Below, piece after piece: positions 517-30,516 of a DNA stretch of 40,721 bases (position 1 is its first letter; every line of letters starts with the position of its first letter). The stretch is from Bacteroidota bacterium (GTDB lineage: Bacteria > Bacteroidota > Bacteroidia > Cytophagales > UBA9547), in assembly GCA_004293915.1 (NCBI GenBank), contig RDZG01000071.1, positions 1 through 40,721 of the forward strand, in the 5' to 3' direction. Under the pieces are notes generated by a model. It made no database searches, had not been told where the DNA came from, and was given only the letters and a program-made list of their open reading frames with translations. Position numbers and translations under genes: made by a program.

Positions 517-3500
517 TTATTTTTTTGTATCTAACCCCAGTTGCCTTTTGATGGCATCTATTTCTGATTGCAAACTGACTGTGTTTGATTCTAGTTTGTC
601 GTTTTTAGTTTGCAATGTTTCTATCATTTTTTGTTGTTCTTTAATAGCTTCTATCAGAAAAGGAATTATTTTGGTATATTCCAACGATTTAAAGCCGTCA
701 GGTGCTGTACTAACTATTTCTGGTAGTATTTTTTCAACCTCTTGGGCAATCAAGCCAAATTGTTTTAGATTATCAATAACCTTTCTTTTATCCAAAAAGT
801 CTTTTTTCCAAAAATAGCTTGTTCCTTGAAGTTGTTCCAATGTTTTGATTGCATTAGTTATTGGTAATATATTCTCTTTATAGCGAGCATCGGAAGTTAA
901 TGCTATTGTTGCAGACCTAACTGATCCAGTTGCATTTATATCTCCTACTACATCTAACTTATATGCAGGAGCAGCAGTACCAGTTCCAATACCAACATTG
1001 CCTCCAGCTTGATTTATAGTCAAATCTGCCCAAGCATTTAGAGCATTATTGTGTCCACCAATAGATGCTCTACCAAGATTGTTTCCAAAAACCACTCTAT
1101 CTCCGCCAGTACCTGTACCAAAATTTCCAGCTATCCAATTTACTCCATTGTTGATTGTATTGATATGCAATGGATTATTGGGTGTCGTAGTGCCTATTCC
1201 TACATTACCATTTTGATTGATTGTAATTAAATCTGTTGCTGTATTAGTTCTAAAAACATAGTTATCGTCCGAGCCATTCATGCCAACAAACCATTTTTCA
1301 TTACCTTGTCTGCTCAAAGTTAAACCAGTATATAATCTACTTGCATTATCATTATTTAATCGTATAGATGTGTTTCCAGTATTATTTTGATTTCTAATAT
1401 CTAATGAAAAGATGGGGGTTGAAGTTCCTATTCCTACATTGCCATTGTTATAAACCGTCATTCTGTCGATTCCTTGCGTTGAAAAAGCTAGAAATCCATC
1501 ATTATTAACTATACCTCTATAAAAGTTTATAGAAGCATTGTTAATTCCAGAAACGGAACCGTAAAATAAACCTAATCTAGCTTGAAGTGGATTTCCTGTT
1601 ATTCCATTCATTACTTGTAGCTGATAATTTTGATCATTAACACCCGAAGTTAACACAGCTTGCACATTATCTGAAATATTTCCTCCAATATCTAATCTTG
1701 CTCTTGGTACTGAAGTTCCTATCCCTACATTCCCCAAATTAGAAATCCTCATTCTTTCTGTGCCAGTAGTAGACTGTGAAGCAGTATAAAAAGACATTCC
1801 CACAGTATTAGCACTGGTACTTTCACTCACTGCCGCCACGCCAGCCCATTTGTTATATTCGGAACCGAAACCAACATTCAATCGCAATCCTATAAATTCA
1901 CCAGTTCCTGCACTTGCTGCATTTCCTTTAATGGTTTGAAGCCAGCCATCTTGAGGGCTGTTTACTTCAAAAAATGTAGTTGGATTTACATTTCCTATGC
2001 CCACTTTACCAAAAGAACCATTTCCTTCGGCTGAAAACGAAATAAAATTGGAGGTTCTAGGATTTACGGTATTATCAACCCCCATGCCAAGAACCAAAGC
2101 TGAAGTTTGCCAATCTGCACCAGCCGCAACTCGCACTGCTGTCATATTAAGTGCCATAGAATTGCCGGGGTTGCATCCAAAACTGCTGAGAATCAAAGAG
2201 TTATTTAAAACAGAACCCAAAACACCTGCATGTGTTCTAAAAGCATTACTAAATGCCGTACCAGCAAAAGTGGTGCCAGGAACAGCCGCTACCGTAAGTT
2301 TTGCTGGGGGGGTATCAGTCCCAATTCCAACATTATTAGTCAAAGGCAAATTGCTAGTATTGGTTCCGTTAATTGTCCAAGCATTAGCACCCGAGCTTGT
2401 ATTTATAAACAAATCACCATTAGTATTAGCAAAAACAGCTCCAGAAGTAGAAAGATTGCGGATTCGAACAGCACCGTTCACATCAAGCATGGCAGAAGGT
2501 GCAGCAGTTCCAATCCCCACATTGCCATCGCCTCTTATGCGCATAAGTTCTACGGCAGCGGTAGCACTCGAAGCCGCCATAAAAACGTGCGATTGTGTAT
2601 TATCACTTGTTGGAATCATATACCTTGTTTGACCTGTTGCCATACCCAACCCTGCAAACTGAAAATCATTCGTAACGCCACCATCATATAAAATAAGTTT
2701 TTTGTTTCTAACATGATCTCCCAGGTGCATACTACCTTGAGTTTGGCTAAGTACTACATTACCATCTCCTTTAATTCTAAATAATTCTAGGCTAGAAGTA
2801 GAATTAGTACCTGAATAAAAAACATGAGAATTTGTTGAAGCAGGTATTTGATAACGCAAAATTCCATTATTAATACCAAACCCAGCTACCTCATGATCAT
2901 TGTTTTGAAATTGAAAAAGTACTAATTTGCGATTAGATAAATTATTACTTAATTGAAGTTCAACATTGGGCGTGGTTGTCCCAATCCCTACATTTCCACT
3001 TACAATCAAACTATTGGCTGGTGGCGTGTTTACGCCTGCATACGCTCCCATAGCTATACTTCCAGCTACATCCAAACTATTTAAAGGCGAAATTGTGCCA
3101 ATACCAACATTCCCATTTGGACGAATAGTTAATCTTTGAACATCTGAAACTCCATCATTATTATAAATAGAATAATTAGCTTGCCCTGCCCATAAGCCTG
3201 TTGACCATTTTGGATTAGTGCCAGATAATGCACCTGATGGAACAAAATCTAAACTTGCCCAATTTCCATTCGTTGTTCTTTCGATTATCGAAACCGCATT
3301 TGAACCTCTAACATGAAGCATTTGTCCAGGTACATTTGTCCCAACCCCTAATCTTTTATTAGTATTGTCAAAAAATAAATTTGCACCATCCGAAGTTACT
3401 GTTATAGCATTACTAAAAAAACCTACTCCACCAGCAACACCTCCACCAGCCAAAGCTCCCGAAGGCAAAGGATTGGCACTTACGCTCACCATTTGCCATT

Positions 3501-3813
3501 GACCTCCACTACTTACATCAAAAATTACTCTTACAAAATGCCCTGCTTTAATATCGTTTGCCACCAAAGGCTGATCAAAATTTTTGAGAATAGGTCTTGC
3601 ACCAGTGCCATTCAAATTTAAAGTAGCAGCTCCCGTAATATTTTGATTAGATTTAAAAGTAAATTCTATACCTCCATTCGGTGCAGAAACTATCACGGCA
3701 GGATAAGTTACCACAAAAGCATTGCCTGAGCCAGTGGCATCGAGTTGCACTTGAGCTTGGCTAGTAAAAAAGGCAAAAAGAAGAACGGAAAATACAAGTA
3801 ATGTTTTTTTCAT
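517..3813 (-). CDS. Secreted repeat protein with S74 intramolecular chaperone domain
   Basis: This is a 1098-residue surface or secreted protein. Residues 1-20 are a clear signal peptide ending in SQAQ. Most of the length is low-complexity beta-rich sequence punctuated about every 70-100 residues by NVGIGT-x-x-P motifs, at least nine recognisable. This is the pattern of Bacteroidota tail-fibre-like proteins. The end, from SDARYKENI at residue 974, is the endosialidase-type intramolecular chaperone (Peptidase_S74), followed by a coiled coil near 1056-1093. In the family this domain drives trimerisation of the fibre and then cuts itself off just before the Ser. The Ser974 and Lys979 expected for that cleavage are present. 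A weak -7-like element (GATTTTTG, 3841-3848 on this strand) precedes the start. The ligand of the fibre is unknown; adhesion is an inference. Confidence 0.9.
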   Translation of the reverse strand: MKKTLLVFSVLLFAFFTSQAQVQLDATGSGNAFVVTYPAVIVSAPNGGIEFTFKSNQNITGAATLNLNGTGARPILKNFDQPLVANDIKAGHFVRVIFDVSSGGQWQMVSVSANPLPSGALAGGGVAGGVGFFSNAITVTSDGANLFFDNTNKRLGVGTNVPGQMLHVRGSNAVSIIERTTNGNWASLDFVPSGALSGTNPKWSTGLWAGQANYSIYNNDGVSDVQRLTIRPNGNVGIGTISPLNSLDVAGSIAMGAYAGVNTPPANSLIVSGNVGIGTTTPNVELQLSNNLSNRKLVLFQFQNNDHEVAGFGINNGILRYQIPASTNSHVFYSGTNSTSSLELFRIKGDGNVVLSQTQGSMHLGDHVRNKKLILYDGGVTNDFQFAGLGMATGQTRYMIPTSDNTQSHVFMAASSATAAVELMRIRGDGNVGIGTAAPSAMLDVNGAVRIRNLSTSGAVFANTNGDLFINTSSGANAWTINGTNTSNLPLTNNVGIGTDTPPAKLTVAAVPGTTFAGTAFSNAFRTHAGVLGSVLNNSLILSSFGCNPGNSMALNMTAVRVAAGADWQTSALVLGMGVDNTVNPRTSNFISFSAEGNGSFGKVGIGNVNPTTFFEVNSPQDGWLQTIKGNAASAGTGEFIGLRLNVGFGSEYNKWAGVAAVSESTSANTVGMSFYTASQSTTGTERMRISNLGNVGIGTSVPRARLDIGGNISDNVQAVLTSGVNDQNYQLQVMNGITGNPLQARLGLFYGSVSGINNASINFYRGIVNNDGFLAFSTQGIDRMTVYNNGNVGIGTSTPIFSLDIRNQNNTGNTSIRLNNDNASRLYTGLTLSRQGNEKWFVGMNGSDDNYVFRTNTATDLITINQNGNVGIGTTTPNNPLHINTINNGVNWIAGNFGTGTGGDRVVFGNNLGRASIGGHNNALNAWADLTINQAGGNVGIGTGTAAPAYKLDVVGDINATGSVRSATIALTSDARYKENILPITNAIKTLEQLQGTSYFWKKDFLDKRKVIDNLKQFGLIAQEVEKILPEIVSTAPDGFKSLEYTKIIPFLIEAIKEQQKMIETLQTKNDKLESNTVSLQSEIDAIKRQLGLDTKK

Positions 3814-8684: not shown

Positions 8685-11333
8685 ATGCTTAAAATAGGAA
8701 TTTTCTTTGGTGGACAATCACGTGAGCGTGAAATTTCATTTGCTGGTGGTAGAACCGTTTACGACAACCTCAATAAAGACCTTTTCGAGCCCATCCCCAT
8801 TTTTGTAGATAGCATAGGGAATTTTATAGTTTTAGATTGGAAATATGTGTACAAAGGCACTATTCGTGATTTTTATCCTGCATCAAAATTTTATCCTGAA
8901 AACGAAAATTTCTTTCAAATTTATATCGAATCTTTAGGACAGCTATCTGATAATGAACTAAATAAAATCATTTCTGAAGCTGGAAAAAAAATATTACCAC
9001 ACGAATTTTCTAGCACTTTTGATATAGCATTTTTGGCTTTGCATGGGCAACATGGCGAAGATGGAAGTATGCAAGGTTTGCTCGAATGGTATGGAATCCC
9101 TTACTCAGGCTCTGGAATTTTACCTTCTGCAATTGGTATAAATAAGTTAATTCAAAAGCAAATTATGCGAGATGCAGGTTTTGATGTGCCTCAATTTTTG
9201 ACACTAAAAAGAGAGAATTGGAATCCTGAATCTACTCAAAAAACATATGATGAAGTTGTAAAAAAAACTGGTTTGCCAATAGTTATAAAAGCACCAAATC
9301 AAGGTTCTTCTATTGGCGTTTCTATTATTCAACATGCTGATTTAGAAGCATTTAAACTTGCAGTTAATAAAAGTTTCTTTATCGAAGTTATTAGTAAAAA
9401 TCAATGGAAAGCATATTCAGAAACCGAAAAACATAGTTTCATAAGAGATTTGGCAGATATAAGAGTTGGTATAGGCATGCCAGTACAAATAAATAAAAAA
9501 ACGTGCTTCTCTCCTACCCTGCTTTTGTCAGAAATCAATTTGTATTTTGAATCAAATGCTAAAGATTTAATCATCGAAAGTACTAATGGTGAATCGTATA
9601 TTTTGTTTGAAGAATTTGTGAACGGCAAAGAGTTTTCGACTATTGTAATTCAAGACGAAAACGGAAATGCGGTTTCGCTTCCGCCAACACAAATCATTAA
9701 GAAAAACGATGTTTTTGATTACAGAAGTAAGTATTTGCCCGGAATGAGCCGCAAAATTACACCAATAGATTTGCCTATTGAAAGCATAAAAAAAATATGC
9801 AGCGATACCGAAAAATTATTTGATACTTTACATTGCAATGTTTATGCTCGAATTGATGGTTTTATTACTGAAAGTGGAAAAGTATTTTTAAACGACCCCA
9901 ACACGACTTCGGGAATGATGCCAAGTTCGTTTTTCTTTCATCAAGCGGCAGAAATTGGACTTTCACCTTCGCAGTTTTTAACTTATTTGATTCGTACTTC
10001 GCTCAAAGAAAGAGCAAATTCGGGTAAAAACACATTGAAATCAGCCGAATTGATGCAAAAATTGGATAATAGTTTAGAAGCGCAAAAAACTGCATCAAAT
10101 CAAAAAATACCTGTTGCTGTAATTATGGGTGGATATTCCACAGAACGGCATATTTCCGTAGAAAGTGGTCGGAATATTTATGAAAAACTTGCATCTTCGA
10201 CCAAATATGCACCCTTTCCTGTGTTTTTAACTGGCAATGACGATGCGTATGATTTATATAAAATACCTGTAAATATCATGCTAAAAGATAATGCAGATGA
10301 TATAAAAGAAAAAGTGCTGCATCCATCTGATATTCACCCAATTATATTAGAAATTAGACAAAAAACAAAGTCTATTTTTGAGAAATACACATCTGGAATT
10401 ACATTAAAATCAGAAAAAATAAGTTTAGAAGATTTAGCAAAAATTTGTAAAAAAGTATTCATTGCATTGCATGGCAGACCAGGCGAAGATGGAAGTTTGC
10501 AACAAAAATTAATTAAAGTTGGGTTGCCTTTTAATGGCTCTGGCGTAAAAAGCTCTTCTACAACAATTAATAAATATGAAACAAACGAAATTTTAATGAA
10601 ATCTGGATTTTTAGTTGCAAAACATCAATTAGTTGATTCAATTTCTTGGCATGAAAACAAAGAAGAAACAATTAATAAAATAGAAAAAAATCTTATGTAT
10701 CCATTAATTGCAAAACCACATGACGATGGATGCAGTTCGGCTGTTAAAAAAATAAAAAATAGCGAAGAACTCAAAGCTTTTGGTAATATGATGTTTAGAC
10801 CACAGCCCGAATTTCTCGACAAAGAGGCAAAAATTTTGAATTTGAAATACAACGAAGAATTTCCACAAAAAAAATATTTTTTGATTGAAGAATTAATATC
10901 AGCAAATGGAGCGAGCCACTTTTTAGAAATAACAGGAGGAATGCTTACACACAAAGATTTTTCTTACGAAGTATTCGAACCTTCCGAAACCTTGGCATCA
11001 GGCGAAATTTTATCTTTAGAAGAAAAATTTTTAGCTGGTGAAGGGCAAAACATCACACCTGCACGTTTTAGTAAAAATCCTCAAAACCAACAAATTATAT
11101 CAGAAAAAGTAAGAGAAACATTGGGGAAAGTTGCACAAACTTTAAATGTAGAAGGTTACTGTAGGATTGATGCTTTTGTTCGTGTTTTCGAATCTGGAAA
11201 AGTAGAGACAATAATAATAGAAATAAATTCGTTGCCTGGCATGACACCTGCAACATGTATTTTTCATCAATGTGCCTTAAATAATTATAAACCTTACGAA
11301 TTTATTGATGAAATTTTAAACGTTGCCATTTAG
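8685..11333 (+). CDS. ddl: Tandem (double-length) D-alanine-D-alanine ligase
   Basis: This 882-residue protein contains two complete ATP-grasp Ddl modules joined by a linker near 445-473; a usual Ddl is about 300-370 residues. Ddl makes D-Ala-D-Ala for peptidoglycan. Module 1 has GGQSRERE (9-16), HGQHGEDGSMQG (120-131), Lys154, Lys202 with GSSIG, an insert of about 75 residues (220-300), Lys349-Tyr350, and Arg389/Asp391. Its metal site reads LNDPNTTSG, giving Asp404 where E. coli DdlB has Glu270. Module 2 has GGYSTERHIS (482-491), HGRPGEDGSLQQ (596-607), Lys630, Lys677, Arg827/Asp829 and a canonical EINSLPGMT (846-854). It has His745 where a Glu precedes Phe in DdlB and Phe782 for Tyr216. It is unclear whether both halves are active. 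DedA and fabI follow on the same strand. Confidence 0.9.
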   Translation: MLKIGIFFGGQSREREISFAGGRTVYDNLNKDLFEPIPIFVDSIGNFIVLDWKYVYKGTIRDFYPASKFYPENENFFQIYIESLGQLSDNELNKIISEAGKKILPHEFSSTFDIAFLALHGQHGEDGSMQGLLEWYGIPYSGSGILPSAIGINKLIQKQIMRDAGFDVPQFLTLKRENWNPESTQKTYDEVVKKTGLPIVIKAPNQGSSIGVSIIQHADLEAFKLAVNKSFFIEVISKNQWKAYSETEKHSFIRDLADIRVGIGMPVQINKKTCFSPTLLLSEINLYFESNAKDLIIESTNGESYILFEEFVNGKEFSTIVIQDENGNAVSLPPTQIIKKNDVFDYRSKYLPGMSRKITPIDLPIESIKKICSDTEKLFDTLHCNVYARIDGFITESGKVFLNDPNTTSGMMPSSFFFHQAAEIGLSPSQFLTYLIRTSLKERANSGKNTLKSAELMQKLDNSLEAQKTASNQKIPVAVIMGGYSTERHISVESGRNIYEKLASSTKYAPFPVFLTGNDDAYDLYKIPVNIMLKDNADDIKEKVLHPSDIHPIILEIRQKTKSIFEKYTSGITLKSEKISLEDLAKICKKVFIALHGRPGEDGSLQQKLIKVGLPFNGSGVKSSSTTINKYETNEILMKSGFLVAKHQLVDSISWHENKEETINKIEKNLMYPLIAKPHDDGCSSAVKKIKNSEELKAFGNMMFRPQPEFLDKEAKILNLKYNEEFPQKKYFLIEELISANGASHFLEITGGMLTHKDFSYEVFEPSETLASGEILSLEEKFLAGEGQNITPARFSKNPQNQQIISEKVRETLGKVAQTLNVEGYCRIDAFVRVFESGKVETIIIEINSLPGMTPATCIFHQCALNNYKPYEFIDEILNVAI

Positions 11334-13045: not shown

Positions 13046-13804
13046 TTATTTCATAAAGTCGCTAAAGGTATCACCTCGCAGACCTAAGCGTATGGTTTCT
13101 AGCGGAATAACTTCGTTTGGAGCAATGTTTCCTAAATTTACATTTGTACCCAAAAGTTTGATAAACCAAACTTGTTGCGATTTTTGAGGAGCTTCCCAAA
13201 TAATTTTTTCAAATGGTATTTTTGTCAAAATTTCTTCTACCAGTCCTGAGCGAACTTCACCAGTTGAGCGAAAAAGCCCCACATTTCCACCTTCACGAGC
13301 TTCGCCAATTACTTTCCAAGCACCAGCATCAAGCTCAGCTTGCATCAATTGAATCCATTTGTATGGAGGGATTATTTTTTCGGCATCTTTTGAACCAACT
13401 TCTGATAAAACTGTAACTTGAGTAGATAGTTTTCTGATATACTCGCATTTTACATCATGTGGCAATTCGATTGAGCCATCCGAAACTTCGGCAAATTCTA
13501 ATCCAAATTTATCAATTGTTCTGCGATATTCGTCAAACTGACCTCTTACTATAAAAGCTTCGAAAAGTGTACCACCAAAATAAGTTGGAATACCAGCATC
13601 TTTGTAAACTTTTATTTTGTCTTCCAAACGAGAAGTTACATACGATGTAGCCCAACCTAGTTTAACAATGTCTACATAATTTCCAGCAACATCCATGAAA
13701 TCTTCGGCTTCGCGAACGCTCAAGCCTTTGTCCATTGCCATTGTAAATCCAGAATCTCTAGGTTTTAGAGGTCTTTCTGGTATTTGATTTAAGTGATAAT
13801 TCAT
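13046..13804 (-). CDS. Phosphosulfolactate synthase (ComA)-like protein
   Basis: A 252-residue TIM-barrel protein of the ComA family (PF02679), close to the length of archaeal ComA. ComA adds sulfite to phosphoenolpyruvate to give phosphosulfolactate on the way to coenzyme M; plant HSA32 heat-stress proteins are homologues. Family-like segments are MDKGLSVREAEDFMDVAG, VDIVKLGWATSY, IPTYFGGTLFEAF, FAEVSDGSIELP and VIGEAREGGNVGLF. The ATG directly follows the stop codon of the upstream TPR gene, so the two are probably translated together. Bacteroidota do not make coenzyme M, so the product may feed sulfonate or sulfonolipid metabolism, or the protein may have another role. This is not decided by the sequence. 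Confidence 0.85.
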   Translation of the reverse strand: MNYHLNQIPERPLKPRDSGFTMAMDKGLSVREAEDFMDVAGNYVDIVKLGWATSYVTSRLEDKIKVYKDAGIPTYFGGTLFEAFIVRGQFDEYRRTIDKFGLEFAEVSDGSIELPHDVKCEYIRKLSTQVTVLSEVGSKDAEKIIPPYKWIQLMQAELDAGAWKVIGEAREGGNVGLFRSTGEVRSGLVEEILTKIPFEKIIWEAPQKSQQVWFIKLLGTNVNLGNIAPNEVIPLETIRLGLRGDTFSDFMK

Positions 13805-26797: not shown

Positions 26798-27757
26798 TTA
26801 TTTTTTTTTTCTTTTCAATACTTTCTCAACTGCCTCAACAATATTGGCAGCTTTCAAACCATATTTTGCAAGCAGTTCATCTGGAGTTCCACTTTCTCCA
26901 AAGGTATCTTTTGTGCCAATAAACTCTTGTGGAGCAGGAAATGCACTACTCAATACATGAGCAACACTCTCCCCTAGCCCACCAATAATATTGTGTTCTT
27001 CTGCTGTAACTACACAACCTGTTTTCTTTACAGATTTTAGAATAGCTTCTGCATCCAAAGGCTTGATGGTGTGTATATTTATAATTTCAGCATCAATACC
27101 TTTGGCTTCAAGTAACTCACCTGCTTGGATGGCTTCCCAAACCATGTGTCCTGTTGCTATGATAGTAACATCTTTACCTTCGTTTACCATCCAAGCTTTT
27201 CCGATTTCAAATTTTTGATTTGGATCGGTATAAATTGGAACAACTGGACGTCCGAAACGCAAATAAGCTGGACCTTCATGGTCGGCAAGTGCTATGGTTG
27301 CAGCTTTGGTTTGATTATAATCACAAGTGTTGATTACTGTCATACCTGGAAGCATTTTCATGAGTCCTAAATCTTCTAAAATTTGATGTGTAGCACCATC
27401 TTCTCCCAAAGTAAGACCAGCATGCGAACAAGCAATTTTTACATTTTTACCTGAATATGCCACAGATTGGCGTATTTGATCATACACTCTTCCTGTTCCG
27501 AAATTGGCGAAAGTAGTTGCGTAAGGAATTTTACCACCTATGGTCAATCCTGCGGCTATACCAATCATATTGGCTTCGGCTATTCCAGTTTGAATAAAAC
27601 GCTCTGGATTTTCTTTTGCAAAAGCACCTAGTTTTAAGCTATCTGTAAGATCGGCACAAAGTGCAACTACATTTTTGTTAGATTTACCTAGTTCGGTCAT
27701 GGCATCTCCAAAACCTGAACGGGTATCTTTTTTTTCCGTAAATGTGTATTTTTTCAT
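26798..27757 (-). CDS. Transketolase, C-terminal half subunit
   Basis: A 319-residue protein corresponding to the pyrimidine-binding and C-terminal domains of transketolase. The activating glutamate is in FIQTGIAEANMIGIAAGL. YATTFANFGTGRVYDQIRQS, ATHQILEDLGLMKMLPGM and the later GPAYLRFGRPVVP are family signatures. With the N-half subunit it interconverts pentose-phosphate-pathway sugars using thiamine diphosphate. Split transketolases of this kind are usual in Bacteroidota, with the two genes normally adjacent. Here the N-half lies about 1.9 kb upstream, and five accessory genes stand between. No promoter is visible in the 45 bases upstream, so expression probably depends on readthrough. Confidence 0.95.
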   Translation of the reverse strand: MKKYTFTEKKDTRSGFGDAMTELGKSNKNVVALCADLTDSLKLGAFAKENPERFIQTGIAEANMIGIAAGLTIGGKIPYATTFANFGTGRVYDQIRQSVAYSGKNVKIACSHAGLTLGEDGATHQILEDLGLMKMLPGMTVINTCDYNQTKAATIALADHEGPAYLRFGRPVVPIYTDPNQKFEIGKAWMVNEGKDVTIIATGHMVWEAIQAGELLEAKGIDAEIINIHTIKPLDAEAILKSVKKTGCVVTAEEHNIIGGLGESVAHVLSSAFPAPQEFIGTKDTFGESGTPDELLAKYGLKAANIVEAVEKVLKRKKK

Positions 27758-29682: not shown

Positions 29683-30516
29683 TTAATAATCTCCTAAAGT
29701 TTCCTCTAATTGAGCTAAAGCAATATCTTTTTGCTCGTCATTTGGAGCATTTCCATGCCATTTATGGGTATGCATCATGAAATCTACACCCATTCCCATT
29801 TCAGTTTTCATCATGATGGCCGTAGGTTTGCCTGTGCCTTTTTGTTTTTGAGCTTCTAGAATGGTTTTTTCTAACTCTTCAAAATTATTTCCATCACAAG
29901 CAAGAACATTCCAGCCAAAAGCAGCATATTTTTTTCCCAAATCCAAAAGCGAAAGTACTTTATCGGTACTTCCATCAATTTGTTGTCCATTTACATCCAC
30001 AAAAGCAATAAGATTATCTACTTTATTATGAGGAGCAAACATAGCAGCTTCCCACACTTGGCCTTCTTGTTGTTCGCCATCTCCCATGAGGCAATATACA
30101 AAACGGTCGTCATTGTTAAGTTTTTTTGCTAATGCAGTGCCTATAGCTACTGACAAACCCTGTCCTAATGACCCAGAAGCCATACGAATACCTTCCAAAT
30201 GTTCATGTGGAGTTGGATGTCCTTGTAATCTTGAGTTGATTTTGCGGTGAGTTCCTAGTTCTTTCACTGGAAAATAGCCAAAACGAGCCAATGTGCTATA
30301 AAAAACAGCCGAAATATGTCCATTTGAAAGATAAAAAACATCTTCTCCTATGGCATCCATATTGAAGTTTTTATTATGTTTCATTACTTTAAAGTATAAT
30401 AAAACAAATAATTCGGTACAACCCAATGCACCACCAGGATGTCCACCTTTGGCACCATGCACCATTCTAATAATATCTCTTCTAACTTGCGAAGCAACCT
30501 TTTTTAAATCTGTCAT
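29683..30516 (-). CDS. Transketolase, N-terminal half subunit
   Basis: A 277-residue protein equivalent to the thiamine-diphosphate-binding domain of transketolase. Signatures are GAKGGHPGGALGCTELFVLLYF, LSNGHISAVFYSTLARFGY, SGSLGQGLSVAIGTALA and the ThDP/Mg motif GDGEQQEGQVWEA, closing in AFVDVNGQQIDG. It needs the separate C-half (26798-27757) for activity. A perfect -7 element, TACCTTTG, lies 17 bases upstream, making this the head of a transcription unit. The next genes on the strand are toxin-antitoxin genes rather than the expected partner. Confidence 0.95.
   Translation of the reverse strand: MTDLKKVASQVRRDIIRMVHGAKGGHPGGALGCTELFVLLYFKVMKHNKNFNMDAIGEDVFYLSNGHISAVFYSTLARFGYFPVKELGTHRKINSRLQGHPTPHEHLEGIRMASGSLGQGLSVAIGTALAKKLNNDDRFVYCLMGDGEQQEGQVWEAAMFAPHNKVDNLIAFVDVNGQQIDGSTDKVLSLLDLGKKYAAFGWNVLACDGNNFEELEKTILEAQKQKGTGKPTAIMMKTEMGMGVDFMMHTHKWHGNAPNDEQKDIALAQLEETLGDY

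Follow-up and report, generated by a model that had tools for sequence, protein, structure and literature searches.

The window analyzed here, a stretch of 40,721 nucleotides (contig RDZG01000071.1) from a bacterium of the order Cytophagales in the phylum Bacteroidota, carries a gene for a tandem D-Ala-D-Ala ligase (Ddl), an 882-residue protein in which two complete Ddl modules are joined in one chain. The two modules keep different and strictly fixed active sites, which suggests a divided labor of the halves and not a simple duplicate. We propose, with confidence that is evenly balanced for the model as a whole, that the cell has its D-Ala-D-Ala ligase in the form of this subfunctionalized tandem, in which module 2 would be a re-tooled ATP-competent ligase whose N-terminal part braces module 1.

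The open reading frame (positions 8685-11333 of the forward strand) begins with ATG, comprises 882 codons without an internal stop, and encodes a chain that lies outside the size of single-module Ddls (300-370 residues). Pfam places Dala_Dala_lig_N (PF01820) on it in two stretches and Dala_Dala_lig_C (PF07478) in four, both above cut-off, which bears out the original prediction of two complete Ddl modules in one protein. The whole chain scores 360.3 bits against the NCBIfam model TIGR01205 (cut-off 245.65); scored singly, module 1 (217.3 bits) and module 2 (149.1 bits) both stay below that value. The frame is real, and its joint, near residues 446-474, is neither a frameshift nor an assembly join, a possibility that the original prediction had itself raised, because homologues cross it in a single frame: this holds for all of the 80 retained GTDB loci (the best 80 of 423 relatives, at 55-67% identity, among them Pontibacter, Hymenobacter, Rufibacter, Rhodocytophaga, Marivirga and Xanthovirga) and for 24 of 39 close relatives. 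A TIGR01205 profile search of the organism's own genome (3.85 Mb in 156 contigs, given as 100% complete) revealed no second Ddl, which answers the earlier question of a separate ddl gene. Four further places in the genome matched the profile and were rejected as AccC, CarB, PurK and PurD, and MurF, the user of D-Ala-D-Ala, is present above cut-off.

Active-site residues were compared across 134 distinct tandem proteins, the window's own included, with Escherichia coli DdlB and DdlA as alignment references and in DdlB numbering. In module 1, E15, K97, S150, E180, E187, K215, Y216, R255, D257, N272 and G276 are found in 134/134 and K144 in 133/134, so that the full acceptor set (E15, S150, Y216 and R255) is present in every protein. 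The Mg2+ ligand set of this module is incomplete, with D257 and N272 kept and E270 replaced by Asp, likewise acidic, in 134/134, and position 275 is Ser (131/134) or Ala (3/134) instead of Pro. Module 2 keeps E15, K97, K144, E180, E187 (E748 of the protein, invariant), K215, R255, D257, E270, N272 and P275 in 134/134, and carries five substitutions that are equally fixed, E17H, S150C, Y210L, Y216F and S281T; it is thus without the Ser150 and Tyr216 acceptor residues of Ddl and has Leu where the omega loop carries tyrosines at 210 and 212. As read from these alignments, the canonical set is broken at different places, in the metal/oxyanion loop of module 1 and in the acceptor pocket of module 2. 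The full motif series that had been predicted for both halves therefore stands as far as complete modules are concerned, but not as a canonical set, from which each half departs elsewhere.

The departures in module 2 are not those of a decaying copy. The active-site positions have a mean entropy of 0.056 bits in module 1, against 1.41 for the module as a whole, and of 0.069 bits in module 2, against 1.31; none of 10000 random site sets reached an entropy as low in either module. Of 133 homologues, 116 resemble the window copy more in module 2 than in module 1, and because of this higher conservation, with active sites fixed in both, neither half is decaying by the measure of sequence divergence. 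Nor does module 2 fit a dead pseudoenzyme, its ATP/Mg2+ ligands (nine residues, 134/134) being neither lost nor drifting. The residues S150, Y216, E270, P275, G276 and S281 are present in 61/61 distinct single Ddls, which were drawn from the order, f21-survey and phylum-sample loci (f21 being a family described below) as best TIGR01205 matches, so that the sample favors canonical residues. Position 17 is Glu in only 40 of the 61, which makes the His17 of module 2 less telling.

Two of the fixed substitutions in module 2 fall at positions with an assigned bearing on specificity. Passages of PMC7691350 report that Ser150 and Tyr216 are conserved among ligases making solely D-Ala-D-Ala, and that DdlB with Phe216 and Ala150 gained weak activity toward D-Ala-D-lactate (D-Ala-D-Lac), while a passage of PMC5996685 states that Phe versus Tyr at the 216 position decides between depsipeptide and dipeptide ligase activity. 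The suggestion in the original prediction that one half might have a different substrate role is thus strengthened by the pairing of Phe216 with Cys150 in 134/134 copies of module 2.

An AlphaFold2 model of the tandem, built with 42 aligned tandems, has a mean predicted local distance difference test score (pLDDT) of 88.8 and a predicted template modeling score (pTM) of 0.88, with a helix (residues 450-473) that connects the modules and low confidence in the omega-loop regions of both. By VIA-align, module 1 matches 3i12_A over residues 1-451 (Z 39.6, root-mean-square deviation (rmsd) 2.9, 338 residues) and module 2 matches 3se7_A over residues 473-882 (Z 37.1, rmsd 2.0, 311 residues); Foldseek was also run, and the VIA-align listing consists mostly of module 1 matches, so that further families may match as well. 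An insertion that E. coli DdlB lacks separates the GSSxG region of module 1 from the strand preceding Glu180 and is modeled with helices and strands.

Ddl crystal structures have a recurrent dimer in common, according to passages of PMC6899670, in which the interface of the Burkholderia pseudomallei enzyme (BpDdl) is given as Gly77, Gly81, Val95, Ala99 and Asp103 and the dimer is said to bury little surface, the enzyme being monomeric at low concentration. With the BpDdl positions mapped onto the window and counted over 143 rows, duplicates not removed, module 1 mostly keeps the interface residues (for example, Gly131 in 140/143 and Ala149 in 127/143). Module 2 is similar at three of the five positions (603, Gly in 143/143; 621, Ile or Val in 104/143; 629, Asn or Asp in 141/143), but position 607 (Gly81 of Ddl) has one of Q, K, A, T, R and E in 129/143 and position 625 (Ala99 of Ddl) is Ala in just 21/143. 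A plain covalent homodimer through the usual interface is less likely because module 2 does not conserve these two residues, and the covalent pseudo-dimer of the original prediction is weakened to that extent.

The tandem Ddl is a common form in the class Bacteroidia, as the counts in the class and close-relative samples indicate. Among the 39 genomes of closest relatives (own included), the one-frame tandem is found in 24, a shorter form in six, two separate genes in one and an ordinary single Ddl in four; one copy is cut by a contig end, and the three relatives without a match are 68%, 89% and 94% complete. In the class sample of 295 genomes, 284 of which lie outside the order, one frame spans both modules in at least 118 of the 284, partial pieces being excluded from this count. 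A search of other genomes for the same domain pair, proposed with the original prediction, thus found it widely. The search of the phylum sample (118 genomes), which was aimed at the Ddl family and not at the tandem, gave matches above the single-Ddl cut-off in 110 genomes, including 84 of the 89 outside the class, the other five scoring 179-244 bits; in the order sample (291 genomes, with at most seven candidates scored per genome) 54 have a match above this cut-off. The original prediction had also allowed that a double-length Ddl might already be a described common form: it is common, but no published description of a fused or tandem Ddl was found in a full-text literature search, as judged by titles and abstract openings among the matches listed. 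The short form of Bernardetia sp. Wsw4-3y2 carries the plain annotation D-alanine--D-alanine ligase.

Two side observations were made in these surveys. A metagenome-bin contig titled Bifidobacterium breve (L018) holds a tandem Ddl of the Cytophagales type (63% identity) and apparently belongs to a mislabeled bin. Outside the class, and below the Ddl cut-off, pairs of adjoining Ddl-like ATP-grasp frames, on the same strand and each about 350-440 residues long, occur at G634:C9, G577:C8, G598:C39, G604:C4, G628:C1 and G631:C2, with a canonical Ddl also present.

Nature has dissected the tandem in two ways. In three families of the order (f2, f4 and f11), all 69 of 69 genomes keep module 1 and have module 2 reduced to an N-terminal piece, the match to the query ending at residue 568-639 and the frames being 553-671 residues long. 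Module 1 is probably sufficient as Ddl in these genomes, because no further Ddl match to the query was found in 67 of the 69; the two that have one are G289 and G073, and only that of G289 exceeds the TIGR01205 cut-off. Residues were read in 32 distinct short proteins, the remaining short-form genomes being known as match spans, and position 270 is Asp in 32, position 275 Pro in 32 and position 212 Phe in 29. A model of the short form (558 residues, 29 sequences) has a pLDDT of 90.4 and a pTM of 0.90, contains a helix at 450-470 like the linker helix of the tandem, and gives the retained module 2 piece a pLDDT of 89-97 in ten-residue blocks; in this prediction the piece is folded, probably lies against module 1 and is no loose tail. 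A further candidate, G306 (L172), was rejected as an independent short form, its frame ending within one base of the sequence end, yet stands in the tree described below as L172_short1, and G349, present as contig-end pieces, was not counted.

The second dissection is found in f21, probably the Amoebophilus/Cardinium group, whose 21 reduced genomes (0.7-2.7 Mb) carry the tandem in six cases, separate halves in 12, a module 2-like gene only in one (G097) and none in two. Five genomes have the separate halves on the same contig, 85 kb to 1.4 Mb apart (in G181 at 335 kb and 1743 kb), and the other seven have them on different contigs. In these 12 pairs, module 1 has Ala (9), Val (2) or Ser (1) at position 275, never Pro, and module 2 has Phe216 in 12 and Cys150 in 11, with Ser150 in G164; the module 2 frame of G205 is broken. 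The lone module 2 of G097 (96% complete) has Ser150 and Phe216. A half that has lost the other appears to carry the canonical residue, which is Pro275 where module 1 is alone and Ser150 in the module 2 of G097, although the latter case is weakened by G164, a relative of G097 that also has Ser150 though both halves are present. MurF is above cut-off in 18 of the 21 genomes, G097 among them; a passage of PMC3486910 states that Cardinium and Amoebophilus are able to synthesize peptidoglycan, and one of PMC12342168 credits Cardinium with most of the peptidoglycan pathway.

A phylogenetic tree of 103 rows was generated as a quick maximum-likelihood IQ-TREE run, with support from the Shimodaira-Hasegawa-like approximate likelihood ratio test (SH-aLRT) only and with the root not fixed. 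Module 1 (45 rows, including short and split forms), module 2 (31 rows) and single Ddls with DdlA and DdlB (27 rows) each occupy one side of a branch, with SH-aLRT values of 98, 100 and 95, respectively. The longest stem is that of module 2, and long branches lead to ECddlB and L229_m1. With a root among the single Ddls, the modules would be sister groups, in keeping with a single old duplication and fusion; since the root is not fixed, duplication in place and fusion of two older paralogues are both possible.

In the mechanism that we favor, module 1 would have a normal Tyr-type pocket for ATP, Mg2+ and two D-Ala and would supply MurF with D-Ala-D-Ala, and that module 1 is the D-Ala-D-Ala ligase we consider very probable. 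Module 2 would be a paralogue, an ATP-grasp ligase still able to bind and use ATP/Mg2+, and because its pocket is re-tooled (Cys150, Phe216, Thr281, Leu at 210 and 212) it would most likely join D-Ala to a second acceptor, or else yield the same product with the work divided differently. Our confidence is moderate that module 2 is an ATP-competent ligase with another acceptor preference, whereas D-Ala-D-Lac or another D-Ala-D-X as its product seems quite unlikely. The N-terminal part of module 2 would pack on module 1 and remain as a structural brace once the rest is lost.

Several observations weigh against this proposal. The E270D replacement of module 1 is found in 0/61 single Ddls and may bear on activity. 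The catalytic part of module 2 is gone in the 69 short-form genomes, and a single Ddl replaces the tandem in G054, G105, G171 and most of family f20; these losses and replacements show that no essential second product hangs on module 2 in those lineages. The Pro275 pattern rests on one loss event, because the nine short forms of f2, f4 and f11 that the tree includes make up one clade, and Cys150 is not absolute, given the Ser150 of G097 and G164. Lastly, by profile score module 2 lies closer to the general Ddl model (149.1) than to the D-Ala-D-Lac model (83.8).

The alternative that survives best, which we regard as somewhat unlikely, is that module 2 is a non-turnover partner that binds ATP, and perhaps D-Ala, and stabilizes or allosterically regulates module 1 without forming a product. 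Such a partner would suit the f2, f4 and f11 genomes, where the catalytic part is dispensed with, mostly with no other Ddl match, and an N-terminal piece modeled as folded and placed remains, and it would be consistent with the replaced acceptor residues and with a pTM of the tandem that suggests a defined arrangement of the halves. A pure brace, however, would need neither the ATP/Mg residues kept in 134/134 nor fixed odd acceptor residues, and module 2 has a gene to itself in 12 of the 21 f21 genomes and is the sole match in G097, where MurF is present. That both halves make D-Ala-D-Ala, their differences tuning affinity or pH response only, is improbable: ordinary single Ddls do replace the tandem in some genomes and G097, which has MurF, apparently makes do with module 2 alone, but the acceptor-specificity positions of module 2 differ in 134/134, unlike those of 61/61 single Ddls. 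A covalent copy of the Ddl homodimer, its sole gain being the fixed pairing of equal subunits, would account for two complete modules in a single chain, the recurrent crystal dimer and the three similar interface positions, but with positions 607 and 625 not kept, the halves unequal and separate halves persisting in f21, it is highly improbable.

Relative to single-module Ddls (E. coli DdlA/DdlB, TIGR01205), the tandem has the same fold, the ATP-grasp motifs and, in module 1, the acceptor residues; unlike them, it has two modules per chain, E270D, P275S and an insertion of ~70 residues in module 1, and Cys150 and Phe216 in module 2. Module 2 resembles the Leuconostoc ligase LmDdl2 (1EHI), as described in PMC7691350, in having Phe216 and being without Ser150. 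It differs from LmDdl2 and VanA in having Cys, not Ala, at 150 and Leu at both omega-loop tyrosines; its sequence match to 1ehi_A is weak (E 1e-7), and its score of 83.8 bits against the D-Ala-D-Lac model NF000206 (cut-off 550) does not place it in the Van family. Van-type ligases have as companions VanH, which supplies D-lactate, and VanX, which removes D-Ala-D-Ala. The MurC-Ddl fusion (NCBIfam NF011171), known from Chlamydia, is likewise a Ddl fused to a cell-wall enzyme, but the partner there is MurC and here a second Ddl. The large subunit of carbamoyl-phosphate synthase also has two unequal ATP-grasp halves per chain, each with its own ATP-dependent step, but it is of a different family, and nothing observed in the tandem points to an intermediate passed between the halves.

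Coordinates of the tandem gene and its parts are collected in Table 1.

Table 1. Features of the tandem Ddl gene, in positions of the window.
Feature	Position	Strand	Basis
Tandem D-Ala-D-Ala ligase (Ddl) gene	8685..11333	+	882 aa; open reading frame, Pfam, NCBIfam, homologues
Module 1 (residues 1-446), Tyr-type Ddl	8685..10022	+	DdlB alignment, structural match to 3i12_A
Insertion of ~70 residues in module 1 (about 233-302)	9381..9590	+	DdlB alignment
Metal/oxyanion loop of module 1, D404-P-N406-T-T-S409 (E270D, P275S)	9894..9911	+	Residue alignments
Linker helix between modules (residues 450-473)	10032..10103	+	Predicted structure
Module 2 (residues 474-882), Phe-type re-tooled Ddl	10104..11330	+	DdlB alignment, match to 3se7_A
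N-terminal piece of module 2 (about residues 474-570)	10104..10394	+	Minimum retained by f2, f4 and f11 short forms
His489, module 2, Glu17 position	10149..10151	+	His 134/134
Cys683, module 2, Ser150 position	10731..10733	+	Cys 134/134
Phe782, module 2, Tyr216 position	11028..11030	+	Phe 134/134

Of 79 loci with room for a following gene, 50 have a PASTA-domain open reading frame (by Pfam) no more than 500 bases after the tandem, the window being among the 79 and having none; such a neighbor fits a cell-wall role and says nothing on module 2. An example of a PASTA gene directly after the tandem is L027:8764-9579.

Elsewhere in the window, transketolase is in two genes on the reverse strand, an N-terminal half at 29683-30516 and a C-terminal half at 26798-27757, with PIN, Uma2, DUF433 and DUF5615 genes between them, as if a toxin-antitoxin-like cluster had landed there. 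A ComA-type phosphosulfolactate synthase domain (PF02679) is encoded at 13046-13801 (reverse strand) in this Cytophagales genome. The gene at 517-3813 (reverse strand) encodes a 1098-residue protein with many NVGIGT-type repeats and a C-terminal Peptidase_S74 chaperone domain, a domain known from phage tail spikes.

Ddl is a cell-wall enzyme and the target of D-cycloserine, as noted in the abstract of PMC5717164, and a passage of PMC5996685 reports that its acceptor residue tracks vancomycin sensitivity in lactic acid bacteria. The tandem, together with its natural truncations and natural splits, constitutes a ready comparative system for the contribution of each half. That a Tyr-type D-Ala-D-Ala ligase is coupled in one polypeptide to a Phe-type ligase for a D-hydroxy acid or other D-amino acid is a doubtful proposition, but one with a concrete prediction, namely a second D-Ala-D-X product in bacteria that are not expected to have one; if true, the fixed pair would give a large share of Bacteroidia two types of D-Ala-D-X terminus or metabolite.

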